The translations under genes and the position numbers were made by a program. The notes beneath the pieces are model-generated. The model made no database searches, was not told the DNA's origin, and worked only from the letters and a program-made list of their open reading frames with translations. A stretch of 39,999 nucleotides of DNA from Candidatus Moraniibacteriota bacterium (lineage in GTDB: Bacteria; Patescibacteriota; Minisyncoccia; Moranbacterales; UBA2206): assembly GCA_030645735.1 (NCBI GenBank), contig JAUSNP010000002.1:1-39999 (forward strand), read 5' to 3'. Positions 11,998 to 28,087 of the stretch are shown here, one piece after another (within the stretch, counting starts at the first letter, position 1; the number at the start of each line of letters is the position of its first letter).

Positions 11998-12012
11998 GCT
12001 TGTGAACGACAA

Positions 12013-12108: not shown

Positions 12109-12115
12109 AAGATAA

Positions 12116-12676: not shown

Positions 12677-12689
12677 ACTTAGCCTAAAC

Positions 12690-12716
12690 AAAAAGCGGAG
12701 AAAGTCCCCGCTTTTT
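12690..12716 (-). terminator. yqeY terminator
   Basis: Stem AAAAAGCGG/CCGCTTTTT with an internal AGAAAGTCC loop region; on the minus strand it is followed by GTTT. It separates yqeY from the Nudix operon. Confidence 0.75.
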
Positions 12717-12724
12717 GAGTGATA

Positions 12725-13177
12725 TTATTGTAATGATTCTTCAACGATTTTTTTGACGAGGTTGCCGTCGGCTTGACCTTTCAATCTGCCCATGACTGGT
12801 CCCATGACCTTGCCGATGTCAGCTTTGCTTGTCACGCCAGCGGCGGCGATGACTTCAGCCACGATAGCTCGCACTGCGTCTTCGCTCAATTGAGCTGGCA
12901 TGTAGGCCATTAGAATTTCAATTTCTTTCAATTCTTTTTCCGCCAATTCTGGTCGTCCACCTTCTTCATATTGAGTCACGGCGTCTTTTCTTTGTTTGAC
13001 TGCTCGTGAGATGACTTCCATTGATTCTTCGTCAGAAAGTCCGGTTTCCCGTTTCATCTTTTCAATCTCAACATTCTTGATCATTGAATCTAGCATGCGA
13101 AGGACATCGCGTTTTTCAGTTTCGCCCGCCTTCATAGCTGCTTTCAAATCTTCAAATATAGTTTGTTTGAGTGACAT
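12725..13177 (-). CDS. yqeY: GatB/YqeY domain protein
   Basis: This family shares a helical domain with the C-terminus of amidotransferase subunit GatB and may bind tRNA; the role of the stand-alone form is not settled. The 150-residue protein is typical in length. Features are 'RDVLRMLDSMIKNVEIEK', 'SRAVKQRKDAVTQYEEGGR', 'AYMPAQLSED' and 'DIGKVMGPVMGRLKGQADG'. In many genomes it lies next to rpsU, as it does here. It is followed by a clear terminator. Confidence 0.93.
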   Translation of the reverse strand: MSLKQTIFEDLKAAMKAGETEKRDVLRMLDSMIKNVEIEKMKRETGLSDEESMEVISRAVKQRKDAVTQYEEGGRPELAEKELKEIEILMAYMPAQLSEDAVRAIVAEVIAAAGVTSKADIGKVMGPVMGRLKGQADGNLVKKIVEESLQ

Positions 13178-13183
13178 TTATTC

Positions 13184-13275
13184 ATGAAGCATGAAGCTTG
13201 TAACATGAAGCATTTTTTGAAAATATTTTTCGCAAAACCACATTGTTTCAAGTTTCATGTTATATGTTACATGAT
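13184..13275. repeat. inverted repeat between yqeY and rpsU
   Basis: CATGAAGCTTGTAACATGAAGCAT on the left is imperfectly mirrored by CAAGTTTCATGTTATATGTTACATGA on the right. It may act as a terminator or stabilise the mRNA end of rpsU. Confidence 0.5.
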
Positions 13276-13278
13276 TTT

Positions 13279-13533
13279 TTATTTTACCATTTTCTTCTTA
13301 GCGTTTCTAAAGTTTTCGTCATCAAATTTGCCCATTTTTTTCAAACGGTCAACAACTTTTTTGACTTTAGATCGGTACATAGCGCCAGCGCGAAGTTCAG
13401 TCTTGCTCTTTTCTTCCACGCGGAATCGAGTTTTTCTAGCTTTCACTAGGACGCCACTTTGTTGTACGCGACGAGAAAAACGTCTGATTAAACTTTCAGA
13501 TGTTTCTCGGTCTTTCTTTTTTACTTCAATCAT
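13279..13533 (-). CDS. rpsU: 30S ribosomal protein bS21
   Basis: bS21 is a small basic protein on the platform of the 30S subunit. The start at the ATG 13533 is set by a strong Shine-Dalgarno (AAAGGAGG), so the track's first 11 residues are dropped. The 84-residue product starts 'MIEVKKKDRETSESLIRRFSRRV', matching the family, followed by 'RKTRFRVEEKSKTE' and a long basic tail. The excellent ribosome-binding site contrasts with most genes here. Confidence 0.92.
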   Translation of the reverse strand: MIEVKKKDRETSESLIRRFSRRVQQSGVLVKARKTRFRVEEKSKTELRAGAMYRSKVKKVVDRLKKMGKFDDENFRNAKKKMVK

Positions 13534-13558
13534 AAAAATCCTCCTTTCTGTGATACAT

Positions 13559-13625
13559 GTTAACATTTTAGCACGTTAACATTTCAACATCCCAGCAAAA
13601 TTTGCTCAAATGCTAAAATGTTAAC
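13559..13625. promoter_or_regulatory. long inverted repeat upstream of rpsU
   Basis: Perfect 15-bp arms GTTAACATTTTAGCA (13559-13573) and TGCTAAAATGTTAAC (13611-13625), with further nested GTTAAC/CACGTTAAC words. It lies 25 bp upstream of the rpsU start. It may be the hisS terminator, a regulatory leader, or a dispersed repeat. Confidence 0.45.
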
Positions 13626-13673
13626 GTGCTGACGTGAATTGGCAGTATAAACTATTTGCTCGCTAATTGCAAA

Positions 13674-15101
13674 CTAAGCCTGTTCTTGATCTTGACTCGG
13701 CTCTGCAACATGATTGTGATCATGATAGACCACTACATTGTCAGTCTTCAATTTCTTCTTTACTAAATCAATCAATTTTTCCGCGCTAGCCGTTTCCTGT
13801 TCACCACTAATCATATTTTTGATGATGACTGTTTTGTCCAAAGCTTCTTTTTGACCCAAAATCAAAGTCATTTCTACGCCCAATCGATTAGCTACGCGCA
13901 GTTGTGATTTCAAACTACCTCGGCCAAAACTTTCCGCCACCAAAATTCCATTCTTTTCCAATTCAGAGAATAAACGCAAACTTTTCTTTTTGGCCAAGTC
14001 GCCCAATTGAGCCAAGAAAACTTTTGGCTTTGGCGCGCGATAGGGTTTGGCTTGCACACGTTTCATTTCCAAAATCAATCGCTCCACTCCCAAGCCAAAT
14101 CCGATGGCCGGAGTTGCTTCCCCACCAATCATTTTCACCAGACCATCATATCTTCCGCCACCACCCAATGAACTCTTGCGTCCTTCTTCAGAACCAGACC
14201 AAATTTCAAAAACAGTTTTGGTATAATAGTCCAAACCACGCACAAGTCGCGGGTTGATGGTGTATGGCAAATCCAATTCATCTAAATATTCCAACAAACT
14301 CTTGAAATGTACGCGACATTCTTCGCATAAGTGATCCACTGATTGTGGGGCTGAAGCACTAACTTGCGAACACTTGTCTTCTTTGCAATCCAACACACGC
14401 AAAGGATTCAAATCCATTCTGCGCTTGCAATCAATACACAGTTTAGTTGCTTTTGATTCTAAATAACTTACTAGCAAATCTCGATATTGCTTGCGACAAA
14501 CTGGGCAACCAATTGAGTTGACTTGAATCTGAATGGCCTTGATGCCCAAATTTTGCACCACGCGCGCCGCCACCTGAATCATTTGCGCATCCAAAATTGG
14601 ATCTTGTTCGCCAAATGAATCAAAATTGACTTGCGAAAATTCTCGATAACGCCCTTCTTGCGGTCGATCATAACGATAGACAGTGCCAGCAGAAAAAAGC
14701 TTCACTGGTTTGCTCAACACATTCATACCATGTTGGATATACGCGCGCGCAATGCCAGCCGTCATTTCTGGTCGCAAAGCCACCTTGTCGCCACCCTTGG
14801 TCACAAAACTATATAATTCTTTTTCTACAATGTCAGTCCCCTCACCAATACTGCGGTTGAAAAGATTGCTGAATTCCACGATTGGCGTATCAATGCGAGA
14901 GAAGCCATAATCACGAGAAAGTCTTTCTGTCACTCGACGCACTTGCTCCCAATATGGCTGGTCTTCTGGCAATATATCTCTCATACCACGCAAAGGTTGC
15001 AACGCGATGGGCTCCAATTCTTTTTTCACTTCCTTAACTTGTTTCTTCGCTTTCGCTGGAACTGCTTTTTTAGCAACTACTTTCTTGATGATTTTAGCCA
15101 T
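13674..15101 (-). CDS. hisS: histidyl-tRNA synthetase
   Basis: Class II synthetase that charges tRNA-His. Motifs seen are the start 'PLRGMRDILPED' (about residues 36-47), motif 2 'YRYDRPQEGRYREFSQVNFD', the histidine loop 'RGLDYYTKTVFEIWS', and motif 3 'GFGLGVERLI'. The anticodon-binding domain occupies the last 100 residues. A cysteine-rich insertion (CPVC, CIDC, CKEDKC, CEEC) sits in the catalytic domain and looks like a zinc-binding insert. An N-terminal basic Lys/Ala/Val tail of about 30 residues resembles that of NrdD. From the ATG at 15101 the length is 475. Confidence 0.96.
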   Translation of the reverse strand: MAKIIKKVVAKKAVPAKAKKQVKEVKKELEPIALQPLRGMRDILPEDQPYWEQVRRVTERLSRDYGFSRIDTPIVEFSNLFNRSIGEGTDIVEKELYSFVTKGGDKVALRPEMTAGIARAYIQHGMNVLSKPVKLFSAGTVYRYDRPQEGRYREFSQVNFDSFGEQDPILDAQMIQVAARVVQNLGIKAIQIQVNSIGCPVCRKQYRDLLVSYLESKATKLCIDCKRRMDLNPLRVLDCKEDKCSQVSASAPQSVDHLCEECRVHFKSLLEYLDELDLPYTINPRLVRGLDYYTKTVFEIWSGSEEGRKSSLGGGGRYDGLVKMIGGEATPAIGFGLGVERLILEMKRVQAKPYRAPKPKVFLAQLGDLAKKKSLRLFSELEKNGILVAESFGRGSLKSQLRVANRLGVEMTLILGQKEALDKTVIIKNMISGEQETASAEKLIDLVKKKLKTDNVVVYHDHNHVAEPSQDQEQA

Positions 15102-15138
15102 GATGTTATAAATCACAAATTAAACACTAATTAAACTC

Positions 15139-15160
15139 TCCTGCCTGCCGGCAGGCAGGA
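15139..15160. repeat. 22-bp perfect GC palindrome
   Basis: TCCTGCCTGCC/GGCAGGCAGGA with no loop, in the lepB-hisS gap. I have a memory of similar sequences in other candidate-phyla genomes, but could not check. Confidence 0.8.
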
Positions 15161-15235
15161 ATACTCTCTAATAATTTTTAAATTTTATTCGCGATCATTC
15201 GGGAAAAATTCGAGATTGATTTGCGATTTATATCA

Positions 15236-15850
15236 TTAAAATATAGATATTTTATCTAATGGCCACGCGCGGAAAAGTGCTTTGCCTACGATATCAGCTT
15301 CTGGCAATGGACCCCAAGAGCGCGAATCAGAGCTGAATTGACGATTATCACCCATCACAAAATATTCATCATCTTTGAGCTTCATTGTTACCTCACCAGT
15401 TGTTTTTATGTTGCTAGGTAAATAGCTACTCTCATCCAAAACAAAACCATCCGGATTTTCTGAATTATAAATTTTTACCTTACCATCTTTGATTTCAATT
15501 TTCTCTCCTGGCAAACCAACGGTTCTTTTGATAAAAAATTGAGTTGGATTTTTCGGATAACGGAAAACGATCACCTCTTGTCGGCCAAGCTCCTTGAACG
15601 GTTCAATGGTGAAAAGTGGTCCAACTTCAGTTTTTTTATAACCAAATTCATTTACAATCAGATATTGATTGTTTTCAAAATTCGGCTCCATCGAAGCGCC
15701 TTGCACGAAAAATGGCTGAAACAAAAAAACACGAATCGGGATGATGATGACAAAAGCCAGGATGAAAATTTTGATGACCTCCAACACAAACCCACCGACG
15801 CCATAATAGCGCTCGTCTTGAATTTTGTTAGAAGAAGAGTTAGTTTGCAT
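15236..15850 (-). CDS. lepB: signal peptidase I
   Basis: Cleaves signal peptides of exported proteins at the outer face of the membrane. The 204-residue protein has one N-terminal membrane helix (about 24-45). Catalytic Ser is in 'VQGASMEPNF' (about 53) and catalytic Lys in 'FIKRTVGLPGEKIEI' (about 107). The box E motif 'GDNRQFSSDSRSWGPL' (about 167-182) is intact. A near-consensus promoter lies upstream. Confidence 0.95.
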   Translation of the reverse strand: MQTNSSSNKIQDERYYGVGGFVLEVIKIFILAFVIIIPIRVFLFQPFFVQGASMEPNFENNQYLIVNEFGYKKTEVGPLFTIEPFKELGRQEVIVFRYPKNPTQFFIKRTVGLPGEKIEIKDGKVKIYNSENPDGFVLDESSYLPSNIKTTGEVTMKLKDDEYFVMGDNRQFSSDSRSWGPLPEADIVGKALFRAWPLDKISIF

Positions 15851-15892
15851 GACTATTTTATTTCATAGGCTTACTTGCCCTGTTTACCTACT

Positions 15893-15921
15893 ATTTTAGC
15901 AGAAAAATAGCACCTTGGCAA
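15893..15921 (-). promoter_or_regulatory. lepB promoter
   Basis: -35 TTGCCA (15916-15921), 17-bp spacer, -10 TAAAAT (15893-15898). Confidence 0.6.
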
Positions 15922-15931
15922 GGGTGAAAAT

Positions 15932-15947
15932 AGGCTGAATCAAGCCT
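15932..15947 (-). terminator. weak hairpin after ispG
   Basis: Stem AGGCT/AGCCT (extending to AAAAGGCT on one side), minus-strand tail ATTTTC. Weak as a terminator on the minus strand. Confidence 0.35.
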
Positions 15948-15982
15948 TTTTAATACAAAAACAAAGTCTGCGCAAATCTGAC

Positions 15983-17044
15983 TTATCTTAGCTCTTTATC
16001 TAACTTCTTAATCTCTTTCATAAGCGCCGGCAAGATATCTTTTTCTTTGACGCTCTTGATGACTTTGCCTTTGGCAAAAATCGCGCCCATTCCCTTGCCA
16101 CCCGCCACGCCAATGTCCGCTTCGCGCGCTTCGCCAGGGCCATTGACCACGCAACCCATGACTGCCACTTTGATGGGCGTTTTGATTTTGCTCAATTCTT
16201 TTTCTACGGCGTTGGCCAATTCAATCAATTTGATTTGGGTGCGTCCGCAAGTTGGACAAGAAATCATTTCTGGTCCACGGCGACGAAGTCCCAATGATTG
16301 CAAAATCGCCCAACAAGTGTCAATTTCTTCCACTGGATCCGCCGTGAGTGACACACGAAAAGTAGCGCCAATTTTTTCATGCAACAAGATGCCAATGCCA
16401 ATGGCACTGCGAATTGAACCAGTGAAAACTGTGCCAGCTTCCGTCACGCCCAAATGCAATGGATAGTCAACTTTTTTCGCCATCATCTCATAAGCTTCCA
16501 CCATTTGTGGCACATTGCTGAATTTGATGGCAATCAAAATGTCTTTGAAATTCAATTTTTCCAAAATCTTCACGTGTCTCAAGGCCGATTCAACGGCTGC
16601 CTTGGGAGTGGCGCCATATTTATTCAGAAAATCTTGTTCAATTGAACCGGCATTCACACCGATGCGAATCGGAATTTTTTTCTTCTTGCACGCATCCACC
16701 ACCGCTTTGACTTTTTCCTCCGAACCAATGTTGCCCGGATTGATGCGAATCTTGTCCACGCCTTGCGCCACCGCTTCCAAAGCTAACTTATAATCAAAAT
16801 GAATATCCGCCACCAACGGAATATGGATCTGTTTTTTGATTTTGCCCAACACCTTGGCCGCTGCCATATCCAGCACTGCCACGCGCACGATTTCACAGCC
16901 CTTTTTCTCCAACGCCAAAATCTGTTTGACCGTAGCTTTTACATCATGCGTGTCAGTGTTGCACATTGATTGAATGCGCACTGGATTGTCGCCACCCAAC
17001 AGCAGATTGCCAATTTTGACCACGCGAGTTTTTCGATTTTTCAT
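15983..17044 (-). CDS. ispG: 4-hydroxy-3-methylbut-2-enyl diphosphate synthase (MEP pathway)
   Basis: IspG is an iron-sulfur enzyme that converts MEcPP to HMBPP, the penultimate step of non-mevalonate isoprenoid synthesis. The 353-residue protein has the N-terminal 'VRIQSMCNTDTHD' TIM-barrel start, and the cluster-binding 'SCPTCGRT' (about 262-269) and 'MGCVVNGPGEA' (about 295-305) with their cysteines. No other MEP gene is in the window. Its product would feed undecaprenyl phosphate for cell-wall synthesis, in line with ddl and dgkA. Confidence 0.95.
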   Translation of the reverse strand: MKNRKTRVVKIGNLLLGGDNPVRIQSMCNTDTHDVKATVKQILALEKKGCEIVRVAVLDMAAAKVLGKIKKQIHIPLVADIHFDYKLALEAVAQGVDKIRINPGNIGSEEKVKAVVDACKKKKIPIRIGVNAGSIEQDFLNKYGATPKAAVESALRHVKILEKLNFKDILIAIKFSNVPQMVEAYEMMAKKVDYPLHLGVTEAGTVFTGSIRSAIGIGILLHEKIGATFRVSLTADPVEEIDTCWAILQSLGLRRRGPEMISCPTCGRTQIKLIELANAVEKELSKIKTPIKVAVMGCVVNGPGEAREADIGVAGGKGMGAIFAKGKVIKSVKEKDILPALMKEIKKLDKELR

Positions 17045-17099
17045 AATAATTTTTTAACTATTTATGTGAGCAAAAGTTAGACAAAAAAACAAATCATCT

Positions 17100-17116
17100 G
17101 TTCCCAAAATGGGAAC
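17100..17116 (-). other. hairpin upstream of ispG
   Basis: GTTCCC/GGGAAC with loop AAAAT. On the minus strand a T7 run follows 10 bases later. It may be a late terminator or part of an ispG leader. Confidence 0.35.
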
Positions 17117-17157
17117 GGTTGAGATATTTCCATATCTAAGTTTTTTTACCAAATTTC

Positions 17158-17182
17158 AGTTGTCTACAATTTGTAGACAACT
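17158..17182. promoter_or_regulatory. 25-bp perfect palindrome, possible operator
   Basis: AGTTGTCTACAA-T-TTGTAGACAACT. No U tract follows on either strand, so it looks more like a repressor site than a terminator. It lies between the frameshifted small gene and ispG, about 115 bp upstream of the ispG start. Confidence 0.45.
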
Positions 17183-17197
17183 CCACTGATAAATTCT

Positions 17198-17312
17198 TTA
17201 TAATTTCCTTTCTAAATATGCGCCGACCTCTTTCTCAAAAAAAGTTGCCACTTCCGCAAGCGTGGCCGACTCAATCATTTGCGTGTTGCCAATTTCCACC
17301 TCTGAAATATCT
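17198..17312 (-). pseudogene. out-of-frame C-terminal extension of the next gene
   Basis: Reading on the minus strand, one base out of frame with the 17313-17591 ORF, codons continue as FKDISEVEIGNTQMIESATLAEV... to a TAA at 17198-17200. There is no good start codon of its own. Removing one A from the A7 run (17318-17324, T7 on the plus strand) joins it to the upstream ORF and gives about 130 residues. It is thus a frameshift, a slippage site, or a sequencing error. Confidence 0.5.
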
Positions 17313-17591
17313 TTAAATTTTTTTAATATATTGTTCTCTGTTTTTTATCTTGACCCCAAGAATATATTCAAAAAAATGCAACACAGCTGGCGTATAAATT
17401 CCACTGATTGGCTTTTCAAATTCCTGCTGAATTGCATCTCGACCATATTCCTTGAAAAGTTTTTGCACATCCCCCATAGATCCCAAGGCCAATGTCTGAT
17501 GGATAATCAAATGTCGATCCTTGTCTAAATCCAAAACATCCCCGCCTTTGCGCAGAAACCAAAATAGCTTATTTACCTCTAAATTAAACAT
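17313..17591 (-). CDS. small hypothetical protein, probably frameshifted at its 3' end
   Basis: I do not recognise the family with certainty; the pattern (N-terminal 'FWFLRKGGDVLDLDKDRHLIIHQTLALGSMGDVQKLF', then 'YTPAVLHFFEYILGV') recalls small proteins next to nucleotidyltransferase toxins, but no partner is here. The start at 17591 is supported by GGAG with 7-nt spacing; a TATAAT at 17604-17609 is so close that the mRNA leader would be a few bases at most, in which case ATG 17597 could be used instead. The ORF ends at an A7 run after which coding continues in another frame. It has its own promoter after the kinase terminator. Confidence 0.6.
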   Translation of the reverse strand: MFNLEVNKLFWFLRKGGDVLDLDKDRHLIIHQTLALGSMGDVQKLFKEYGRDAIQQEFEKPISGIYTPAVLHFFEYILGVKIKNREQYIKKI

Positions 17592-17603
17592 TTTCATACT
17601 CCT

Positions 17604-17609
17604 ATTATA
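17604..17609 (-). promoter_or_regulatory. -10 element of the 17591 gene
   Basis: Exact TATAAT preceded by TGC (extended -10 type). It ends 6 bases before ATG 17597, so the transcript would be nearly leaderless. No clear -35. Confidence 0.5.
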
Positions 17610-17626
17610 GCAAAAATCAAACAAAA

Positions 17627-17656
17627 AAACAAGCGTAGCCTTAGCCACACTTGTTT
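17627..17656 (-). terminator. terminator after the histidine kinase gene
   Basis: Minus strand ACAAGTGTGGC-TAAG-GCTACGCTTGT, two mismatches in the stem, followed by a T run (TTTTTTTG). It probably ends the polyamine-kinase transcript. Confidence 0.7.
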
Positions 17657-17703
17657 GTGATATTTTTCGAAATTCAAAATTCAGACTTCAAAATTCCCGC
17701 CAA

Positions 17704-19395
17704 TTATCCCCACTTCTTGATCAACTCTTCTGATTGTTGGATTGGCAACTCAATGATGAAACGAGAACCGAGGTCTTGGCCGTCGGATTCGGCCCAGATG
17801 CGGCCGCCGTTGTTTTCAATCATACTTTTTCCAACAAACAAACCGAGGCCCGTGCCACCAGTGTTGAGGCGGGAGATGTCTTTGCCACGTGAGAATTTGG
17901 CAAACAAATATGGCAATTCAGTTTCGGGGATGCCAATGCCGGTGTCGGAAACAGTCACGCGGATGTTTTCGCCCAGTTGTTCGAGTTTCACTTTCACTCC
18001 ACCATGACCTTCTAAAGTATATTTGATGGCATTGTCTACTAGGTTGGAAATCACTTCACGCACCTTGATGCCGTCAATCAAAAGCTCTGGCAAAACTGTT
18101 TCGGGTTTGATGTAGGTCAAATCCAACTTGCAACTCTTGGCGCGCAAAGCAAAAGTGTCAATCACTTCCTGACAAATCTTGTCCATGTCCCACAGCGCAA
18201 ATTTGAATTCCATTCGTCCGGATTCCATGCGAGAAACATTCAACAAATCCTCCACCAAATTCACCAACCGCTCATTGCTCGAATAGACCTTGTTCAAAAC
18301 ATCTTCTTGTTGCGGAATCAATTTTCCATATGAACCCTCCAACAACATCGAAATGAAACCTTTGATGGCAGTGAGCGGCGTCCTCAATTGATGTGAAGCA
18401 ATGGAAATAAATTCCGTCTTGGCATTGTCCAATGTGCGCAACTGATCATTGGCTTGTGACAATTTCCCTGCCATCAACTGCAACTGTTCTTTTCTTTCAT
18501 CCAATTTCTTGCTGGACTTGATCAAAAACCAGCCAGCCACACCTGATAAAGCCAGAGTGATGCCTGTTAAGATTCTATTAGTGTTGTTTTGGATGAAAAA
18601 TAATTGAGAACCAATCAGAACAAACAATGAAACTACCAAAGCCTGCGCTCCAAGAAGTTTGATATTGAAAGCTTCAAATTTAACAATTAAATAAGCAAGG
18701 AAGCCAATAAATACTGGCATGCCAAAATACCCAAATTGGGAAAGATTCCAATTTTCTGTGAAACTACCCATTATATTGCCCCATGAAAATGCCAACAAAA
18801 ACAATGCAATGCCTATCCCGAGAAAAATTATTTTTTTCCTCAACTCCTCACTTTTCTCGAATATATATGACCTAATAATAAAAACTAAAATAGATAGAAC
18901 AAAGAATAGCTCCAGTGCATAACTTAAATAGAGAGCTACTGGACCCTCATTCGCGTCACAGGAAATCGTGCGCATACCAAAAAGATTATAATCAGTTGGA
19001 ATTAGCAATACAAATAATACTAACGGCAAGAGAAAAAATATTTTTTTATTTAATTCAACATCTTTGTTTGTTACAAATGTATACACAAAATATAACCCAG
19101 AAGCGAATACCATTGGCTCAATCAATATCTGCAACGACCACAAAAACATCACTAAATCGCTTTTATTACTAGCCCATATTATGGAATCCAATATAACATA
19201 CAAAGAAAAAGATAAAATAGAAATAAGTAACAATTTCGAAGATAATGACTTATTTTTAGAATAAATGAAAAAACCCAAAAATAGAGCCACAATTATTACT
19301 GGGATATGGGAATAATGTAGCAAAGTTGGAACATTGCTAGATAAAATCAAATAATGAGGGCTTTCCCATGGACAAAGTAACGCAGAATTAACCAT
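17704..19395 (-). CDS. sensor histidine kinase with N-terminal 7TM domain
   Basis: A membrane sensor kinase of 563 residues. About seven or eight hydrophobic segments occupy residues 28-290, as in 7TM N-terminal sensor domains. A short coiled linker leads to a HisKA domain with phospho-acceptor His335 ('SIASHQLRTPL'), then an HATPase domain with N box 'SNLVDNAIKYT', G1 'DTGIGIP', F box and G2 'GGTGLGL'. No response regulator gene is in the window. It starts 13 bp after the agmatinase gene and a terminator follows it, so it seems to be the last gene of the speD-like operon. A link to polyamine or arginine sensing is only suggested by this position. Confidence 0.92.
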   Translation of the reverse strand: MVNSALLCPWESPHYLILSSNVPTLLHYSHIPVIIVALFLGFFIYSKNKSLSSKLLLISILSFSLYVILDSIIWASNKSDLVMFLWSLQILIEPMVFASGLYFVYTFVTNKDVELNKKIFFLLPLVLFVLLIPTDYNLFGMRTISCDANEGPVALYLSYALELFFVLSILVFIIRSYIFEKSEELRKKIIFLGIGIALFLLAFSWGNIMGSFTENWNLSQFGYFGMPVFIGFLAYLIVKFEAFNIKLLGAQALVVSLFVLIGSQLFFIQNNTNRILTGITLALSGVAGWFLIKSSKKLDERKEQLQLMAGKLSQANDQLRTLDNAKTEFISIASHQLRTPLTAIKGFISMLLEGSYGKLIPQQEDVLNKVYSSNERLVNLVEDLLNVSRMESGRMEFKFALWDMDKICQEVIDTFALRAKSCKLDLTYIKPETVLPELLIDGIKVREVISNLVDNAIKYTLEGHGGVKVKLEQLGENIRVTVSDTGIGIPETELPYLFAKFSRGKDISRLNTGGTGLGLFVGKSMIENNGGRIWAESDGQDLGSRFIIELPIQQSEELIKKWG

Positions 19396-19408
19396 TTTTT
19401 TGTTTTAT

Positions 19409-20305
19409 TTATTTACTAATAAATTTTAATTTGTTTGTATTTTTGAGTAGCTTGTAAGAGATAATGCTGTATACCAACTGCGCAGCAGAATATGGAGTTA
19501 AAACATCATCCTTAGTTGGAGCAATTTCGACTATATCAGCTCCTATAATATCCTTGGATTCAAAAAGCTCTCTCAACAGCTCTGACATATAATCCCATTT
19601 AATGCCTCCAGGAACTGGGGTACCTGTGCCAGGAGCACAGGAAGGATCTAGGCCATCCATATCAATAGTCAGATAAACTAATTTTGTCTCTATGGAATCA
19701 ATGATTGATTTTATTGTTGGTACAGAACCCCTACCCCATTCAAAAACCTTGAGATTTTTTTCTTGAGAAAACTCATACTCATCCTTTCCGTAAGTTCTTA
19801 TACCCACTTGCACAGTGTTAAATCCAAAATCATATGCTCTCCGCATCACACAAGCATGATCAAATTTACTCGGGCTATCCTTATAGTCAGCCGTGTCATC
19901 TCTCAAATCAAGATGTGCATCAATCTGCAATATAGTGACATCTTTCGGATTCAACTCAGTAGCAAAAAACGAAAGTGCTCCGATTGAAACTGAATGGTTA
20001 CCACCCAACATTACTACGAATTTTTTCGGATACTTCACATATGTTTCTTTCACTATATTCACCATCTTTTCCGGAGATAGTTCATTTATGCCTTTCAATT
20101 TTTCATTTGCAATTTTAAAAAGATAAGCAGGCTCAGTTAGTGTAAATCTGTCAAAAAATTCTAAATCTTTATGCAAAATTTCTATAACACTATCTGGTCC
20201 AAGCTCAGATCCTTTTCGAAGAGAATAAGTCGCATCATAAGGAGCGCTCAAAATGATTGCGTCAGCTTTTTCAAAATCACTACAATTAACTATAGAATCT
20301 ATCAT
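19409..20305 (-). CDS. speB: agmatinase (ureohydrolase family)
   Basis: Ureohydrolases remove urea from a guanidino group; agmatinase makes putrescine from agmatine. The 298-residue protein has all manganese motifs: GGNHS (101-105), DAHLDLRD (129-136), an HACVMRR segment (150-156), 'DMDGLDPSCAPGTGTP' (about 217-232) and a late 'DIVEIAP'. All the metal-ligand Asp and His residues appear to be present. Arginase or another guanidinase cannot be excluded from sequence alone, but agmatinase fits the neighbours. It starts 5 bp after the DHS-like gene and is followed at 13 bp by the kinase, so it is clearly part of an operon. Confidence 0.88.
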   Translation of the reverse strand: MIDSIVNCSDFEKADAIILSAPYDATYSLRKGSELGPDSVIEILHKDLEFFDRFTLTEPAYLFKIANEKLKGINELSPEKMVNIVKETYVKYPKKFVVMLGGNHSVSIGALSFFATELNPKDVTILQIDAHLDLRDDTADYKDSPSKFDHACVMRRAYDFGFNTVQVGIRTYGKDEYEFSQEKNLKVFEWGRGSVPTIKSIIDSIETKLVYLTIDMDGLDPSCAPGTGTPVPGGIKWDYMSELLRELFESKDIIGADIVEIAPTKDDVLTPYSAAQLVYSIISYKLLKNTNKLKFISK

Positions 20306-20310
20306 GATAA

Positions 20311-21333
20311 TTAAGCTTTTTTAAAAATTTCCGCTAAATTTCTTTTCTCTCTATTTTTCCAGCTTCCTTTATGATATGCATACCCAACCATGAGTGGCAG
20401 AACAGAAGTTGCTTCTGCATAAACCATTTGTTCATATGCTGTATTCACCTTACCCCAGGAAGCTGCTTCTTTAAGAGTGGAGCTTGAACAGGCACCATCC
20501 CTAACATCTGCCACTGTGATTTGAACTGCATATTTATGCAAAGGCACTTCTTTACCTAGCATTTCAGCGCAGACAACTGTATCTTGCAAGAAGTTCTTTG
20601 GAGTTCCTCCTCCAACGATAAAAATTCCAGTGTCCCCTGCTTTCATTTTAATTTCAGTTAATTCCCTGAAATCCTTAACTGAATCAATTGATACGTGGCT
20701 ATCTGGATTTTCAACCTGATGCATAACCAATCCAAAGCCCGCGCTACTATCAGAAAAAGCTGGACAGAAAATTGGCACATTGTTTTCATAAGCAGCTTGG
20801 ACAAGTGAATCTTTCTTTTTTGAATTATCAACTAAATATTTACCCATTTCCCATATAAATTCTCTTGAGGAATATGGTTTATGATCAAGACTATCTGCTA
20901 TTTCTTTAATTGCCTTATCACAATTCTGAAGTTCCTTTTCATCTATATAGGTGTCGTAAATTCTATCTATATATAAGTCTCGCAAAACATTATCATCAAT
21001 GTTTTGACTTCCTTGGTAATGTTTAGCTCCTAAAGCTTCAAAAAAATCCATATCCACAATACTAGCGCCAGTTGCTACAATAGCATCTACCATATTATTT
21101 TTCACCATATCCACATAAATTTGCATACATCCAGCTGCGCTGGTGCTACCAGCCAGCGATAAAACAACTGTACAATTTTTATCTTCCAACATCATATTAT
21201 ACAAATCAGTTGCACGCGCCAAATCCCGAGATGTGAATGACATCTTTCTCATAGCATCAACCATTTCAGTCGGATTGATTTTTTTAATATCTATGTGCTC
21301 AATCGTCTCCTTTAATAATTCTTCTCTTTTCAT
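20311..21333 (-). CDS. deoxyhypusine synthase-like protein (probable polyamine aminobutyl transferase)
   Basis: In eukaryotes and archaea, DHS transfers an aminobutyl group from spermidine to a lysine of eIF5A. Bacteria lack eIF5A, and bacterial DHS-like proteins are thought to work on free polyamines, for example making homospermidine from putrescine. The 340-residue protein keeps the NAD-binding layout ('LSLAGSTSAAG', 'DAIVATGASIVDMDF', 'FIVGGGTPKNF') and the catalytic lysine in 'EAASWGKV' (Lys295, at the position of human Lys329). The late 'DGACSSST' segment matches the family loop. It sits between a SpeD-like gene (20 bp) and agmatinase (5 bp). The reaction is inferred from this context. 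Confidence 0.9.
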   Translation of the reverse strand: MKREELLKETIEHIDIKKINPTEMVDAMRKMSFTSRDLARATDLYNMMLEDKNCTVVLSLAGSTSAAGCMQIYVDMVKNNMVDAIVATGASIVDMDFFEALGAKHYQGSQNIDDNVLRDLYIDRIYDTYIDEKELQNCDKAIKEIADSLDHKPYSSREFIWEMGKYLVDNSKKKDSLVQAAYENNVPIFCPAFSDSSAGFGLVMHQVENPDSHVSIDSVKDFRELTEIKMKAGDTGIFIVGGGTPKNFLQDTVVCAEMLGKEVPLHKYAVQITVADVRDGACSSSTLKEAASWGKVNTAYEQMVYAEATSVLPLMVGYAYHKGSWKNREKRNLAEIFKKA

Positions 21334-21353
21334 ATATTTTTATGTAAAATGAA

Positions 21354-21758
21354 TTAACAAATATTATTAGCCGGATATCTTGTTCCCCTTTTCACAAAAT
21401 TCTCTTCAATCTCTCCTAATTTAAAAGTTTTAGTAAAATATTTTTTGATAAATTCACGATCAATTCCACTGGTACATGTGTAAACATCGATACTAACAAA
21501 TCTTCTTTTCGGGAAAGTATGGATGCTAATATGACTCTCTGCAATTACAACAATCCCGCTCCAACCCCCTGGATCTTTAATGGCATTGTCTTCAGCTTTA
21601 AAAACATATGGATCACTCAATCTAGTCATACCAAGCTGATGAGGCAACTCAACTAGAGAAAGCATGACCAAGTCCTTATCATTTAATCTTTCGGAATCAC
21701 CACCATAACAATCTAGCATTAAATGCTCCCCAAAATTACACACTTCTATGTCCACCAT
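21354..21758 (-). CDS. speD: SpeD-family pyruvoyl-dependent decarboxylase, substrate uncertain
   Basis: SpeD cleaves itself to form a pyruvoyl group, then normally decarboxylates S-adenosylmethionine. The 134-residue protein has the processing site Glu74-Ser75 in 'AESHISIHTF', His80 and the proton-donor position Cys95 ('DVYTC'). However, the 'HTWPE' glutamate, which from memory is the residue that holds the AdoMet ribose (Glu72 in the Thermotoga enzyme), is Lys84 here ('HTFPK'). SpeD homologs that decarboxylate arginine or ornithine have been reported in bacteria including candidate phyla. With agmatinase in the operon and no spermidine synthase seen, arginine decarboxylase is a good alternative. 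The gene symbol marks the family only. Confidence 0.85.
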   Translation of the reverse strand: MVDIEVCNFGEHLMLDCYGGDSERLNDKDLVMLSLVELPHQLGMTRLSDPYVFKAEDNAIKDPGGWSGIVVIAESHISIHTFPKRRFVSIDVYTCTSGIDREFIKKYFTKTFKLGEIEENFVKRGTRYPANNIC

Positions 21759-21790
21759 TGCTTTAGTATTATATTACGAATTACTTTATT

Positions 21791-21819
21791 ATCCTACAAC
21801 AAAACTTTAATTTTTGCAA
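21791..21819 (-). promoter_or_regulatory. promoter of the polyamine operon
   Basis: -35 TTGCAA (21814-21819), 17-bp spacer, -10 TAGGAT (21791-21796). It lies between the EamA terminator and the speD-like start. Confidence 0.45.
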
Positions 21820-21852
21820 GCATAATCAAGGAAATTTAATAGCAAAATTACT

Positions 21853-21887
21853 AAGGGCCTTGGTTGAGAATCTCAACCAAGGCCCTT
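21853..21887 (-). terminator. strong hairpin after the EamA gene
   Basis: Perfect 17-bp inverted arms, AAGGGCCTTGGTTGAGA, around one base. It lies just after the transporter's stop. The T tract on the minus strand is poor (TAGTAATTTTG), so it may also protect the mRNA 3' end. Confidence 0.65.
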
Positions 21888-21894
21888 TCGACAC

Positions 21895-22818
21895 CTACCC
21901 CAAAAGATAAATCCCAAATGCCATAATTGCTATGGCAAGTGATTTATTCCCCAAGCCAACAAACTGACTTTGCAGAACATCTGCGTGTTTACTGTCAATT
22001 GAGATATTGAATGTCCTACAAAACCAATATATCAACCCACAAACTATCAACACGAAGGCTGGAACCGTCGTTTCGATGACGGCCACATATGATACAGCTG
22101 GGCTGACCTTAATCGCGTAGTGAGAAAATACTATCGCAATCAGATTAAAACATTCCGCGACTACAAGCCAGAGGTATGATGATGTTTTTACTCGAAACAG
22201 CCTCTTCTCTCGTATGGATTTTTTTGTGTAGCAGAAACATCCGCTTAAAAAAATACCCACTGAGAAAAACATAAATCCATCATAGAAGCTGATTTTGTTA
22301 TAAACCTGCTCATCAACCACCATGCTCAATGAAAAGGTGATAATTGCAATCGCCATCGGCCAAGCTATGCACTTCAATTTGTCATGCACAACCTTGCCTT
22401 CAAAACAGGCGATGACAGATCCAGTAACTACAACGACTATTCCGAAATACTCGACACCACTCAACCGCTCATGTACCAACCAAGCTGCCAAGAGAGGTAC
22501 TACTAGGCCAGGCATATTCATGAGTATCGAAATTAGGACAGTATCGTCCGATTTGAACAACGACCGAAAGTAGAAAAAGGTGTAAATCATAAATAGAATC
22601 CCGGAACCTACTGCCAAGCTTCCGTACAAAATGTTCACTTTGGGCAAACCCCAAACAAACATTGACATCAGTGGCAGGATTCCAAAGAAACCTATCACAG
22701 CTACTACTTCATCTTCTTCCTTGAATTGATCAGTGGCCAACCACCGGTCAATCATGACTACCAGCGCCCAAGACATTGGCGCCACGAATGCAATCAACAT
22801 CCAGTTTTGCGCCAACAT
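21895..22818 (-). CDS. EamA/DMT-family transporter
   Basis: The drug/metabolite transporter superfamily exports or imports amino acids, sugars, polyamines or other small metabolites. The 307-residue protein has about ten hydrophobic helices arranged as two five-helix halves (1-140 and 145-307), with the typical end-of-half motif 'LVHERLSGVEYFGIVVVVTGSVI'. A Shine-Dalgarno-like AGGGGGT lies near the ATG. A consensus promoter, a palindrome in the 5' UTR and a strong terminator make it a single-gene unit upstream of the polyamine operon. Export of a polyamine or arginine-derived compound is possible only by position. Confidence 0.85.
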   Translation of the reverse strand: MLAQNWMLIAFVAPMSWALVVMIDRWLATDQFKEEDEVVAVIGFFGILPLMSMFVWGLPKVNILYGSLAVGSGILFMIYTFFYFRSLFKSDDTVLISILMNMPGLVVPLLAAWLVHERLSGVEYFGIVVVVTGSVIACFEGKVVHDKLKCIAWPMAIAIITFSLSMVVDEQVYNKISFYDGFMFFSVGIFLSGCFCYTKKSIREKRLFRVKTSSYLWLVVAECFNLIAIVFSHYAIKVSPAVSYVAVIETTVPAFVLIVCGLIYWFCRTFNISIDSKHADVLQSQFVGLGNKSLAIAIMAFGIYLLG

Positions 22819-22868
22819 TTGACACCCCCTAATTTATATTATTCTATTTTAAAAGAAAATTTTCCAAA

Positions 22869-22883
22869 TTGGCACGCTGCCAA
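22869..22883 (-). promoter_or_regulatory. palindrome in the 5' UTR of the EamA gene, possible operator
   Basis: TTGGCA-CGC-TGCCAA, lying about 5-20 bases downstream of the expected transcription start. Confidence 0.4.
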
Positions 22884-22894
22884 CTTGATTTATA

Positions 22895-22923
22895 ATTGTA
22901 GCATAAAATATGTATTTTGTCAA
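22895..22923 (-). promoter_or_regulatory. EamA gene promoter
   Basis: -35 TTGACA (22918-22923), 17-bp spacer, -10 TACAAT (22895-22900). Confidence 0.7.
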
Positions 22924-22987
22924 AGACAAAACTACTCCAAAGAAAAAATGCTTTACATAAGCCTTTTTTATAAACTATTTTTAATGT

Positions 22988-23794
22988 CTATTTAAATATC
23001 GTCTTATAAACCATTATAATTACTTTGAGCACTATAACATTGCGCAAAGTCCAATATAAATTCGAAATTATCACACTTCCCCAAAAAATATACCAATCCT
23101 TTCTAGAGAATTTTTCAAATGATCCGCGACGCATATATGTAACCGTTACAAATGGATCTTGCATGATGCTCAAAGTAAAAAAAACTGCCACATCCCCTCT
23201 TTTCAATAACCAGATAACGAATGAGAAAAAAATAGCTGGAATACGAATCACCGACTGAACAATAATTCTTATCCAACGCGTTCGAATATGCACACTCTTA
23301 GCACGACGAATCCATTCATGTCCATTATCCCGTAGTTCATTTACCACTGAAAAACCGAACCAATCCTTTTTTGACCAGTTATAAAAAATAATTTCGACTA
23401 AATACGAAGCGGCCGACAAAAGCATCATGACCACTCCTCCAATAAAAGGGCCTTTTTGCGCAATTACAAAAATGTATAATGGATTGTCAAAAAACCAATC
23501 GATAGTTTTCCTAATCGTATAACCAATAGCAATGGTTTTGATTTTTTTTCGTCTGCGCCAAACAAATTTAGTGGCTCTTTTGCATTGATAACAATCCACA
23601 TCTAAAATTCCCGCGGAAAAAGACACTACAAATGCTGTGCATAGAGCAAAAGAAACTAGCCAGCCCGATTTGTTTGACGCAAATTGATTTGCAAATATAA
23701 CCAAAATTGTCGTGAAAGACACGACAAACACAATCGTTCGCCACAAATATTTTTGAAAAAATAATTCGTTATATTCTTGAAACTTGTCTCGCAT
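22988..23794 (-). CDS. hypothetical polytopic membrane protein
   Basis: I do not recognise this 268-residue protein. About six hydrophobic segments are seen (near 18-35, 43-62, 104-138, 182-200, 205-215, 235-262), separated by basic loops such as 'KFVWRRRKKIKT' and 'HEWIRRAKSVHIRTRW'. A CYQC pair near 73-76 could bind metal or form a disulfide. It is basic and AT-rich like its neighbours. It lies alone between ddl and the EamA gene on the same strand. Function unknown. Confidence 0.7.
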   Translation of the reverse strand: MRDKFQEYNELFFQKYLWRTIVFVVSFTTILVIFANQFASNKSGWLVSFALCTAFVVSFSAGILDVDCYQCKRATKFVWRRRKKIKTIAIGYTIRKTIDWFFDNPLYIFVIAQKGPFIGGVVMMLLSAASYLVEIIFYNWSKKDWFGFSVVNELRDNGHEWIRRAKSVHIRTRWIRIIVQSVIRIPAIFFSFVIWLLKRGDVAVFFTLSIMQDPFVTVTYMRRGSFEKFSRKDWYIFWGSVIISNLYWTLRNVIVLKVIIMVYKTIFK

Positions 23795-23826
23795 TTGTGT
23801 ATTTATTTTACTTTTTGAAATAAATA

Positions 23827-23846
23827 AAAAAGCGTGCTCGCTTTTT
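23827..23846 (-). terminator. ddl terminator
   Basis: AAAAAGCG/CGCTTTTT with a 4-nt loop, then a T-rich tail (TATTTATTT) on the minus strand. It lies about 165 bp after the ddl stop; the rest of the gap holds nothing recognisable. Confidence 0.6.
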
Positions 23847-24010
23847 CTTTTCGAAAAGCTTGCACCTTTTATGAGACTTATACCTAAATGATTCTTCTGG
23901 CTAAAAAATAAATATTTTATCCAAAAAAATTATTCAGAAGCAGGTCTGTTTGTCTATGCACCAAATGGGCACCAAGATATTATATTATGATTGAGAATGT
24001 TTGGCAAGGA

Positions 24011-25081
24011 TTATTTTGAAATTCGCAATTTGTTTTCCATCTTGTGACGCTCAATGGCAAAACCAATCAGTCTATCAATTAGCTCTGCATAGGTAACTCC
24101 GCTGTGCTCCCACAGTTTGGGATACATACTGACGGAAGTGAAGCCTGGGATGGTGTTGATTTCGTTAACAAAAATTTTATTATTCTTGGTCAGAAAAAAA
24201 TCGACTCGTCCCATGCCTTCGCAACATAATACTTCAAAAGTCTGAATGGCCAAGGCTTGAATTTTTTTCGCTACCTCTGGCGGGATGTTGGCTGGGATAG
24301 CTGTGGTTGCACCTTTCTTGTCCAAATATTTCGCTTTGTAGGAATAGAAATCATGACTAGGGATTATTTCTCCCAATGCTGAAGCCATCGGATTTTCATT
24401 GCCCATCACGGAACATTCGATTTCTTTGCCCATCACCGCCTCTTCAATGATAATTTTGTTGTCATAAGCGAAAGCGTCTTTTATGGCTTGGCCAAAATCA
24501 TTTTTGTTTTTGACTTTGCTGATGCCAACCGATGAGCCGAGATTGGCCGGCTTCACAAAAAATGGAATGCCCAACGCTTTTTTTATTTTTTCAAAAGAAA
24601 GTTCAGATGCCTGCTTCTTGCGATAGACTAAAAATTTTGAAACCGGAATGCCAACTTCACGCATGAGTCGCTTGGCCACATCTTTGTCCATGCCTACAGC
24701 TGAACCCAAGATACTTGGTCCCACAAATGGCACACCATAGGCTTTCAGCATACCTTGCAAAGTTCCATCTTCACCAAAGGTGCCATGAATGATGGGAAAT
24801 ACCACTTCAATTTTTGTTTTCTTGGAATTGCTTTGCACTACCATGCCATTTTTTTCAGCATGGACAGTGACAGCTTTCTTTCGCTTGCTGGCAAAAACAT
24901 TTCTACTCGACAACATATCAGCCTCTTCAAATTGAAACCACTCTCCCGCCTTGCTTACACCTAAAATAATCAGCTCATATTTTTTCTTGTCCGATGCTTG
25001 AATGATGTTTCTAGCTGATTTGATCGAAACCTCATGCTCAGCTGATTTGCCACCGAAGATTATTGCTAGTTTTATTTTCAT
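24011..25081 (-). CDS. ddl: D-alanine-D-alanine ligase
   Basis: An ATP-grasp enzyme that joins two D-alanines for the peptidoglycan stem peptide. From the ATG at 25081 the protein is 356 residues. The N-terminal 'FGGKSAEHEVSIKSARN' (about 8-24), the 'GTFGEDGTLQG' loop, the ATP-grasp 'FVKPANLGSSVGISK' and late 'RVDFFLTKNNKIFVNEINTIPGFT' are all family motifs. Whether it makes D-Ala-D-Lac rather than D-Ala-D-Ala is not resolved. It is divergent from the LCP-family gene, which also acts in wall building. Confidence 0.95.
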   Translation of the reverse strand: MKIKLAIIFGGKSAEHEVSIKSARNIIQASDKKKYELIILGVSKAGEWFQFEEADMLSSRNVFASKRKKAVTVHAEKNGMVVQSNSKKTKIEVVFPIIHGTFGEDGTLQGMLKAYGVPFVGPSILGSAVGMDKDVAKRLMREVGIPVSKFLVYRKKQASELSFEKIKKALGIPFFVKPANLGSSVGISKVKNKNDFGQAIKDAFAYDNKIIIEEAVMGKEIECSVMGNENPMASALGEIIPSHDFYSYKAKYLDKKGATTAIPANIPPEVAKKIQALAIQTFEVLCCEGMGRVDFFLTKNNKIFVNEINTIPGFTSVSMYPKLWEHSGVTYAELIDRLIGFAIERHKMENKLRISK

Positions 25082-25158
25082 AAAATTCATTATTAACAGT
25101 TAAATCATACGCTAATAATACAAAAAAATCAGGATTTTAGCAAAAACTGGTGCAATGC

Positions 25159-25164
25159 TATAAT
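25159..25164 (+). promoter_or_regulatory. extended -10 promoter of the LCP-family gene
   Basis: TGCTATAAT (the TG is at 25156-25157); the -35 is poor. The transcript leader would be about 20 nt with no Shine-Dalgarno. Confidence 0.5.
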
Positions 25165-25189
25165 AGAAGTATCTTAATATACTCAAAAA

Positions 25190-26773
25190 ATGACTCTGCA
25201 AAACCGCAAACCAAATCAAGACTTCGGTTCAACTGAGTTTTCTCCAGATGGAAGCTCCTTTGATGTGAGCACGCCGAGCAAGCATTTGCCATTTGAGCAC
25301 CGAAGGAAAAAGGCTGGTTCGCTGAAATATCAAGTTCTAGCTGGTTTGTTTGTGGTGGCGCTTTTTGCGGCCGTTGGTTATGGTTCTTTTTTTGTGTACA
25401 AGATTTATTCAGTCGGTAAAAAGGTTAGCATTGAGGCGGGTGGCGACAACTCGTCTTTTTTGGAAACCTTGAAATCTTTCACTGGTGGCAATCAACTAAA
25501 TTTGCAAGGTGCGCAAACTGGACGCATCAACATTTTGCTTCTGGGCATAGCGGGTGAAGGCAAGCCCGGACAATTTTTGACTGATACTATCATGGTGGCA
25601 AGCCTAGACACCAAAAATAATCGCGTAGCTTTGCTCTCAATCCCCCGCGATCTCTATGTGAAGATTCCTGATACCCAGATGCAAAGCAAAATAAATTCTG
25701 TCTATCAGCTTGGCCTTGGCAATTCTAGGGATGATAAAGCTTCCGGCGCAGAGCTCATCAAAAAAACTATCAACAACATCACCGGCATTGATATCAATTA
25801 TTATGTTGTGATGAATTTTGATGGCTTCCAGAAAGCTATTGATGACATAGGCGGGGTCAATGTGATGAATCAACGCGACATTTTTGACGCACGCTATCCC
25901 GGACCAAATTATAGTTATGAAACTTTCCAATTGTCCAAAGGCTTTCATCAGTTGAATGGTGCCACAGCTCTCAAATATGCCCGGGTTCGCCACAATGATC
26001 CGGAAGGCGATTTTGGTCGCGCCAAGAGACAGCAGCAAATCATGCAGGCTACCAAAAACAAAATCTTTTCGGCTGGCACTATGCTCAATGTTTTTGCGGT
26101 CAATGATTTGTTGAACACTTTGGGCGACAATATCAAAACTGACATCAGTCCCGATGAAATCTCCAGCTTCTTTGAGCTGACCAAAAAACTCGACACCAAC
26201 AACATCAACAATATGGTGGTAGATGCTTGGAATGCCGACAGTCTTTTGAAAGTTTCGCATGTGCAAATGGGATCAGTGGCGGCTTTCGTATTGCTCCCCC
26301 GCGTGGGCAACTATAGTGAGATTCAAGATTTGGCCAAAAATATTTTTGATTTGAAAGCTTTGCAAAGACGCAGAGATGAGATTGCCAAAGAAGATGCCAG
26401 CATTGTCATCATCAACAAAAGTGGTGACAACAAAATTGTGCAAAAAATCCAAAAGGTTTTACAAGAAAATCTGAAACACAAAAATGTGACCGTTCTCAAC
26501 AACGCTGAGCGAATTTTGACTGACAAAACTGTTGTCTACGGTCTAACTGGCGGGCAAAAACCATTCACCTTGGACGAACTAGCCACCAAATTGCCAGCCA
26601 CTGTCTCCTACTCTGCCGACGCCAGCCTGGCTAAGATCTTACAAAACAAAGAGGTTGACTTGGCGCTGGTAGTTGGAAAAGATTTGATTGATAGGTATAA
26701 TGGGGAGGAAGGCACTTTGGAGGATTTAAACAGGGCGAATGATGATCAGGAGAATGCGGAATACAGCAAATAG
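25190..26773 (+). CDS. LytR-CpsA-Psr family cell-wall polymer ligase
   Basis: LCP proteins attach anionic or sugar polymers from a lipid carrier to peptidoglycan outside the membrane. The 527-residue protein has a cytosolic N-terminus with a basic patch, one membrane helix (about 46-68), the LCP domain (about 108-270) with 'NILLLGIAGEG', 'TDTIMVASLDTKNNRVALLSIPRDLYV' and a later 'ALKYARVRHNDPEGDFGRAKRQQ' carrying the conserved arginines, and a C-terminal LytR_C domain (about 400-500). It is alone on the plus strand after divergent ddl. Its polymer substrate is unknown. Confidence 0.93.
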   Translation: MTLQNRKPNQDFGSTEFSPDGSSFDVSTPSKHLPFEHRRKKAGSLKYQVLAGLFVVALFAAVGYGSFFVYKIYSVGKKVSIEAGGDNSSFLETLKSFTGGNQLNLQGAQTGRINILLLGIAGEGKPGQFLTDTIMVASLDTKNNRVALLSIPRDLYVKIPDTQMQSKINSVYQLGLGNSRDDKASGAELIKKTINNITGIDINYYVVMNFDGFQKAIDDIGGVNVMNQRDIFDARYPGPNYSYETFQLSKGFHQLNGATALKYARVRHNDPEGDFGRAKRQQQIMQATKNKIFSAGTMLNVFAVNDLLNTLGDNIKTDISPDEISSFFELTKKLDTNNINNMVVDAWNADSLLKVSHVQMGSVAAFVLLPRVGNYSEIQDLAKNIFDLKALQRRRDEIAKEDASIVIINKSGDNKIVQKIQKVLQENLKHKNVTVLNNAERILTDKTVVYGLTGGQKPFTLDELATKLPATVSYSADASLAKILQNKEVDLALVVGKDLIDRYNGEEGTLEDLNRANDDQENAEYSK

Positions 26774-26784
26774 GCTTAATTTCA

Positions 26785-26965
26785 AATTAATTTAAATAAC
26801 CAAAAACCAAAACGTAACGCCTGCTTTAAATAACCAAAAACCAAGATACAAGGTACAAACAATTTCCAATACCCAAATTTCAATATTCAAACTTTTGTTT
26901 TTTGAGATTTGATTATTTGATATTTGTTTGGTTATTGTTTCTTGTATCTTGTCTCTTAATGTAAT
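26785..26965. repeat. AT-rich inverted repeat between the LCP gene and pth
   Basis: AAATAACCAAAAACCAA occurs twice on the left (near 26795 and 26827). The block ACCAAGATACAAGGTACAAACAATT is mirrored on the right by GGTTATTGTTTCTTGTATCTTGTCTC. It resembles the other AT-rich stems in this window. Confidence 0.6.
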
Positions 26966-26968
26966 TTT

Positions 26969-27571: not shown

Positions 27572-27574
27572 AAA

Positions 27575-27616: not shown

Positions 27617-27636
27617 AGCCGTCTTTTTCTCCATAG

Positions 27637-28070: not shown

Positions 28071-28087
28071 CTGTGGGGCCAACAGCA

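Follow-up and report, generated by a model that had tools for sequence, protein, structure and literature searches.

The window, a stretch of 39,999 nucleotides from Candidatus Moraniibacteriota bacterium (assembly GCA_030645735.1, contig JAUSNP010000002.1, positions 1 to 39,999), carries four adjacent genes whose products are a SpeD-like homolog of S-adenosylmethionine (AdoMet) decarboxylase, a homolog of deoxyhypusine synthase (DHS), a ureohydrolase and a membrane histidine kinase. We hold with moderate confidence that the locus encodes a horizontally acquired pathway from arginine to homospermidine that is co-transcribed with a mosaic sensor kinase. The route probably runs from arginine to agmatine (SpeD-like protein), then to caldomycin (DHS-like protein) and finally to homospermidine, with the ureohydrolase acting last. 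Substrates, order of steps, product, co-transcription and kinase ligand are in each case those that we infer.

Such a pathway would require neither AdoMet nor pyridoxal phosphate (PLP). The SpeD homolog would cleave itself at S75, forming a pyruvoyl group, and convert arginine to agmatine. The DHS homolog, an NAD-dependent enzyme of the caldomycin synthase (CdmS) type, would join two agmatines to caldomycin by way of an imine on K295, and the ureohydrolase would strip the guanidino groups from caldomycin to give aminobutylagmatine and homospermidine. The three enzyme genes would be transcribed together with the kinase, whose sensor half would have come with the block and been fused to a core that was already present. 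What the kinase detects is most likely a ligand linked to this metabolism.

Enzymes of the gene cluster

The DHS-like protein is a member of the CdmS family by its model score, and most of its active-site residues agree with those of CdmS. It matched Pfam DS with 329 bits, far above the cut-off, and scored 588.7 bits with NF002699 (CdmS), above the equivalog cut-off of 500. Its score with NF001980 (homospermidine biosynthesis), a model that presumably covers the characterised SpeY, was 198.7 bits and below the cut-off of 450. Compared with the positions printed for Thermus CdmS (PMC10981699), S63, E132, D139, F200, E289 and K295 of the DHS-like protein correspond to S67, E136, D143, F204, E293 and K299, and C282 takes the place of L286, with all seven positions at a constant offset of four. 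Ser63, Phe or Tyr200, Glu289 and Lys295 were present in 96 of 96 CdmS-family members, 95 of which also had Glu132 and Asp139; homologs under the NF002699 cut-off had mostly other residues at position 200 and Ala at position 63. Across the class (286 genomes), scores with this model were bimodal, lying either at about 580-589 bits or no higher than 244 bits, and its cut-off was exceeded in three control genomes. The Asp residues that bind spermidine in deoxyhypusine synthase (human D243 and D316) are absent, F200 and C282 being found in the DHS-like protein, and the catalytic Lys (human K329) is kept as K295. Thermus CdmS (TTHA1570) forms caldomycin from two agmatines and does not use putrescine or spermidine, and in Thermus a ureohydrolase converts caldomycin to homospermidine (Kobayashi et al., 2024; PMC10981699). 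A search for a solved structure of CdmS gave none.

The ureohydrolase was recognized by Pfam Arginase (193 bits, far above the cut-off) and by the agmatinase model TIGR01230 (199.4 bits vs. a cut-off of 174.3), and it scored far under the cut-off of the arginase model. The metal-binding motifs GGNHS, DAHLD and DMDGLDP are present. The occurrence of a ureohydrolase at this locus and in a second genome, G167, argues for guanidino substrates.

The SpeD-like protein is proposed, from its sequence and genome context, to be a pyruvoyl arginine decarboxylase (SpeDA). It matched AdoMet_dc (PF02675) with 87 bits, far above the cut-off, and the Ser, His and Cys required for self-processing and catalysis (S75, H80 and C95) are intact and spaced as S63, H68 and C83 of Thermotoga maritima SpeD. 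The genome to which the contig belongs (0.965 Mb, 97.7% complete) contains one SpeD (PF02675) and one arginase-family protein. No match was found in it to spermidine synthase (PF01564), to PLP-dependent arginine or ornithine decarboxylases of either fold (PF02784, PF01276) or to archaeal-type pyruvoyl arginine decarboxylase (PF01862), and positive controls were detected in every one of these searches. A reading made from the sequence only had described a polyamine operon without a spermidine synthase, and the absence of PF01564 from the genome bears this out; the check that it proposed, for speE and a normal arginine decarboxylase elsewhere in the genome, found neither and did not refute it. 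Its assignment of the step from arginine to agmatine to the SpeD-like protein remains the best one, because this single SpeD is the sole candidate decarboxylase of the searched families and speE is missing. Li et al. (2023; PMC10407285) tested SpeD homologs from clusters of SpeD, SpeB and SpeY and found them to be active on arginine, with no decarboxylation of ornithine or lysine.

The four genes are co-oriented and compact. The gaps of 20, 5 and 13 bp given by the sequence-only reading agree with the minus-strand open reading frames (ORFs), all with family scores far above cut-off, and the terminator that it placed after the operon was found as a strong 13-pair stem with a T-run behind the kinase (17656-17627). 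The promoter that it placed before the operon was not recovered: a consensus scan of the minus strand from 21759 to 21852 gave no -35/-10 pair, the best nearby minus-strand promoter-like site (11/12) lies ahead of the EamA gene at 22923-22895, and such sites were as numerous in shuffled sequence. A single unit is better supported by synteny in related genomes than by a promoter. A scan of positions 12000-30000 with Rfam detected no riboswitch and no other RNA.

Order of the pathway steps

The sequence-only reading had the agmatinase acting second and the DHS-like protein last, on putrescine. This order is probably wrong, given the CdmS family score and residues of the DHS-like protein, and it is also disfavoured by four sister genomes of Moranbacteria that have this DHS and no ureohydrolase. 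In three of them (G671, G734 and G713) SpeD directly adjoins the DHS gene; in the fourth (G674) there is no SpeD in the adjacent run. No arginase-family protein was found anywhere in the four genomes (AguA and AguB were not searched there), and the DHS in them therefore cannot wait for an agmatinase of that family. The pattern supports a DHS that takes the product of SpeD directly, and would also fit an ornithine-decarboxylating SpeD combined with a putrescine-using DHS.

We regard it as unlikely, though worth keeping in view, that the SpeD-like protein forms agmatine, the ureohydrolase converts this to putrescine and the DHS-like protein, as a SpeY, joins two putrescines into homospermidine. 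Li et al. (2023; PMC10407285) read such a gene set in that order, the ureohydrolase exceeds the cut-off of the agmatinase model, and the DHS is paired with AguA/AguB in some relatives. Against these points stand a DHS family and residues that are those of an agmatine-coupling enzyme, the sister genomes lacking any arginase-family enzyme and the disregard of Thermus CdmS for putrescine.

The neighbourhoods of CdmS-family genes likewise favour the route through caldomycin. At about 70% identity, the DHS family is represented in Bacteroidota, Thermodesulfobacteriota, Planctomycetota, Alphaproteobacteria, DPANN archaea and bacteria of the Candidate Phyla Radiation (CPR). Arginine decarboxylases or decarboxylase homologs found beside these genes are of several unrelated types, namely SpeA-like (about 22 loci), PvlArgDC (11), SpeD (5-9) and ornithine decarboxylase (ODC)-like (12), and a ureohydrolase adjoined the CdmS-family gene in about 30 loci. 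Sequence motifs did not separate arginine from ornithine decarboxylases among the ODC-like neighbours. On a Sphingomonas plasmid (L118), a CdmS-family gene at 4977-6026, annotated as deoxyhypusine synthase, adjoins a type III PLP decarboxylase, and on plasmid A of Trichormus variabilis (L117) a gene at 6001-7044 with the same annotation adjoins rocD and feo genes.

Several observations weigh against the route through caldomycin. A Cys occupies the position of CdmS L286, and the residue comparison was made with positions printed in the paper. About nine CdmS-family loci have AguA and/or AguB, which fits a putrescine route; alphaproteobacterial members adjoin ODC-like enzymes, with a known arginine decarboxylase only in those of the Pelagibacter/Fonsibacter type. 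The DHS homologs of such clusters were treated as putrescine-using SpeY by Li et al. (PMC10407285). The SpeD-like protein has a Pro in KDPGGWSG, of uncertain equivalence to the Pro conserved in AdoMet decarboxylases, which may thus be retained. Lastly, the genome is not quite complete.

A scheme in which the SpeD-like protein decarboxylates ornithine (as SpeDC) and the DHS-like protein acts on putrescine, with an arginase-family protein that either provides the ornithine or does something else, is quite improbable. This arrangement accounts for genomes with SpeD and CdmS and no ureohydrolase, and SpeDC has been reported from CPR bacteria. However, the E before the catalytic S (ESH) is kept in the SpeD-like protein, which lacks Gln and Thr where the divergent SpeDs of family f149 have Q...TTSH (the equation of these with the diagnostic residues of Li et al. 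being our own), and the hydrolase fits the agmatinase model, not that for arginase. A normal AdoMet decarboxylase in an operon with another purpose has very little to commend it: TIGR03330 (79.5 bits) narrowly exceeds its cut-off of 75.65, but the genome has no aminopropyltransferase, the SpeD-like protein falls in a CPR clade with Moranbacteria SpeDs and apart from bona fide SpeDs (those grouping with T. maritima and with speE-linked CPR SpeD), and the W and E of the HTWPE motif are replaced by F and K.

The f149 SpeDs occur at four loci (L150-L153, in genomes G631, G412, G424 and G562), where they adjoin a CdmS-family gene with Leu at the CdmS L286 position. Some of these loci also have EamA and a distant kinase relative, and G631 and G412 are without a ureohydrolase. 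The divergent SpeDs could be ornithine decarboxylases that supply the same DHS family.

The sensor kinase and its variable slot

The kinase belongs to the locus, together with the enzyme genes that probably form the route from arginine to homospermidine. Its HATPase_c and HisKA domains scored 90 and 72 bits, and the H, N, G1 and G2 boxes are intact. The sensor half has nine hydrophobic segments in residues 22-293 and matched PF16927 with 25.5 bits, under the cut-off of 28.6. The comparison of kinase loci covered 53 related loci, chosen with the help of kinase and CdmS scores. In L106 (57.6%) and L032 (41%), a full-length relative of the kinase follows the cluster closely, separated from it by a single gene for a methyltransferase or SET protein. 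The same slot before the kinase holds SpeD with ATP-grasp, an arginase-family protein with ATP-grasp or SpeD alone at other loci; further contents are SET-domain proteins, methyltransferases, LPG_synthase_C-type proteins, a DapF-like epimerase, GNAT and unknown families. Across the 53 loci, the genes ahead of the membrane histidine kinase are for variable small-molecule or modification enzymes, in many cases joined by an EamA transporter.

The block of SpeD, CdmS, SpeB and sensor half looks horizontally acquired. GC content at third codon positions (GC3) drops from 0.48 in the EamA gene to 0.28 where SpeD begins, and increases to 0.55 from residue 266 of the kinase, a position close to where the sensor domain ends (genome mean 0.40, standard deviation 0.056, 82 genes). 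A fit with two change points gained 45.7 in log-likelihood vs. a maximum of 14.5 in shuffles, and membrane composition alone does not account for the drop, because EamA is also a membrane protein. The kinase core is 82% identical to that of G186 and the sensor halves only 21%; CdmS shares 91% identity with its counterpart in G671, which belongs to another family. Taxonomic family is reflected in the tree of kinase cores (12 changes vs. 33.1 in shuffles, 0/1000) and not in that of sensor halves (31 changes, 143/1000). Instead, the sensor tree follows the neighbouring enzymes (17 changes vs. 27.8, 0/1000) and SpeD alone (7 vs. 12.4, 1/1000), which the core tree fits less well (23 changes, 7/1000; SpeD alone 12, 474/1000). 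The DHS label alone, with six positives, was not significant on either tree. It appears that the enzymes travel together with the sensor half, as one block that lies between the upstream region and the conserved core of the kinase.

The strongest rival here, which we rate at appreciable but lesser odds, is that the kinase and EamA are bystanders at a gene-exchange hot spot where sensor half and enzymes travel together by adjacency, a situation that fits either order of the pathway. CdmS shares 91% identity with the L301 protein, against only about 50% for the sensor halves, so that near-identical enzymes occur with different sensors; EamA has native GC3 and is separated from SpeD by a terminator; and linkage alone could yield the association of sensor and cargo. 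Yet SpeD, ATP-grasp, SET and EamA genes accompany the kinase repeatedly in different families and classes, and no shuffle tracked the cargo as well as the sensor tree. Homologs of the kinase without CdmS exist, which at first suggested a bystander; the neighbourhoods and trees speak against that role, with linkage remaining as a rival.

The EamA-like protein upstream is 29% identical to one located between SpeD and CdmS in L032, and at 20 of 50 kinase loci EamA is part of the uninterrupted run of genes upstream. Beyond it, the 268-residue membrane protein is 33% identical over 199 residues to an ORF of L222 that belongs to a recurrent neighbour family (u2). Coordinates are collected in Table 1.

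Table 1. Features of the locus, by position in the window, with the basis of each assignment
Feature	Coordinates	Strand	Basis
SpeD-like protein, class 1b AdoMet-decarboxylase homolog, proposed pyruvoyl arginine decarboxylase (SpeDA)	21354..21758	-	PF02675, residue spacing, genome context, grouping
DHS homolog, CdmS family	20311..21333	-	NF002699, active-site residues
Ureohydrolase, agmatinase family (SpeB), proposed caldomycin/agmatine guanidino hydrolase	19409..20305	-	TIGR01230, metal motifs
Histidine kinase, whole gene	17704-19395	-	HisKA, HATPase_c
Kinase sensor half, about residues 1-300, multi-pass membrane domain	18496..19395	-	Hydrophobic segments, sensor tree
Kinase core, HisKA and HATPase_c	17704..18495	-	Pfam; 82% identity to G186 core
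Low-GC3 block: SpeD, CdmS, SpeB, kinase residues 1-266	18599..21724	-	Two-change-point fit
EamA-like (DMT) membrane transporter, recurrent neighbour of the locus	21895..22818	-	Similarity to L032 protein, neighbourhood counts
Intrinsic terminator between EamA gene and SpeD	21853..21887	-	16-pair stem, 9 G-C
Intrinsic terminator behind kinase	17627..17656	-	13-pair stem and T-run
268-residue membrane protein, locus membership uncertain	22988..23794	-	Related to protein beside kinase in G246

Other genes recur around the kinase. A PurD-like ATP-grasp protein of about 430 residues, possibly a ligase of agmatine or amino acids, is encoded directly or closely before it in many loci, often with SpeD or EamA (among them L217, L218, L219, L230, L282 and L289-L293). 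In G276, the protein encoded between SpeD and the kinase, at first suspected to be a homospermidine synthase, is an ATP-grasp protein. The product of L294:5129-5674 and 22 related neighbours form a loose group of small proteins with no Pfam family above cut-off; two inspected sequences have an N-terminal hydrophobic anchor and a Cys-rich stretch. L310:2417-3241 and 12 relatives (247-306 residues), also without a Pfam match, are usually the gene directly before the kinase. Directly behind the kinase there is often a protein resembling two receiver domains (L218, L286, L289, L291, L294, L297, L298 and L304), which may be its partner. At the present locus, that place is taken by an ORF of 111 residues without an assigned family (17313-17648).

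Relation to known systems

Clusters of SpeD, SpeB and a DHS homolog (SpeY) without speE have already been published (Li et al., 2023; PMC10407285), and the gene set itself is therefore not new. As in those speDA-speB-speY clusters, three enzyme families are clustered here without speE; locus L104 (Diapherotrites) has the published arrangement of SpeD, SpeY and an AguA-AguB fusion. The present DHS homolog differs in its assignment to the CdmS family, from which the different order of steps follows, and kinase and EamA genes are not mentioned as parts of the published clusters. With CdmS (TTHA1570) and TtSpeBap of Thermus (Kobayashi et al., 2024; PMC10981699), the locus shares the active-site residues of the DHS homolog (L286 excepted), a ureohydrolase and homospermidine as the expected product. 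Thermus has speA and an aminopropyl pathway besides, whereas the SpeD homolog is the only candidate decarboxylase here.

In the staphylococcal agr system, a conserved kinase core adjoins a variable segment that spans biosynthesis genes as well as the sensor half of the membrane histidine kinase. A similar joint variation appears at the loci studied here, but physical linkage confounds the likeness and some near-identical enzymes have different sensors; unlike agr, the genes are for amine and amino-acid enzymes and not for a peptide pheromone. By analogy, and only tentatively since we think it rather doubtful, the loci might form a metabolite-signalling system of Moranbacteria and other CPR bacteria in which exchangeable enzyme cassettes make amine or amino-acid signals, EamA exports them and a matched, exchangeable sensor half detects them. 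The cassettes would then be SpeD-CdmS-SpeB here and ATP-grasp ligases, a DapF-like epimerase and methyltransferase or SET proteins at other loci, and the conjectured signals would be polyamines or guanidinopolyamines. The enzymes are known in parts; to our knowledge, the swappable locus is without a description so far.

The locus allows a direct test of whether the widespread gene sets of SpeD, SpeB and DHS operate through agmatine coupling, with caldomycin as intermediate, or through putrescine. Agmatine coupling, if true, would alter the annotated route in many bacteria and archaea. The comparison also exposes, in reduced CPR genomes, a hypervariable sensor-kinase locus whose enzyme cassettes and sensor halves are exchangeable, a hint of what might be sensed or signalled by these poorly understood bacteria.
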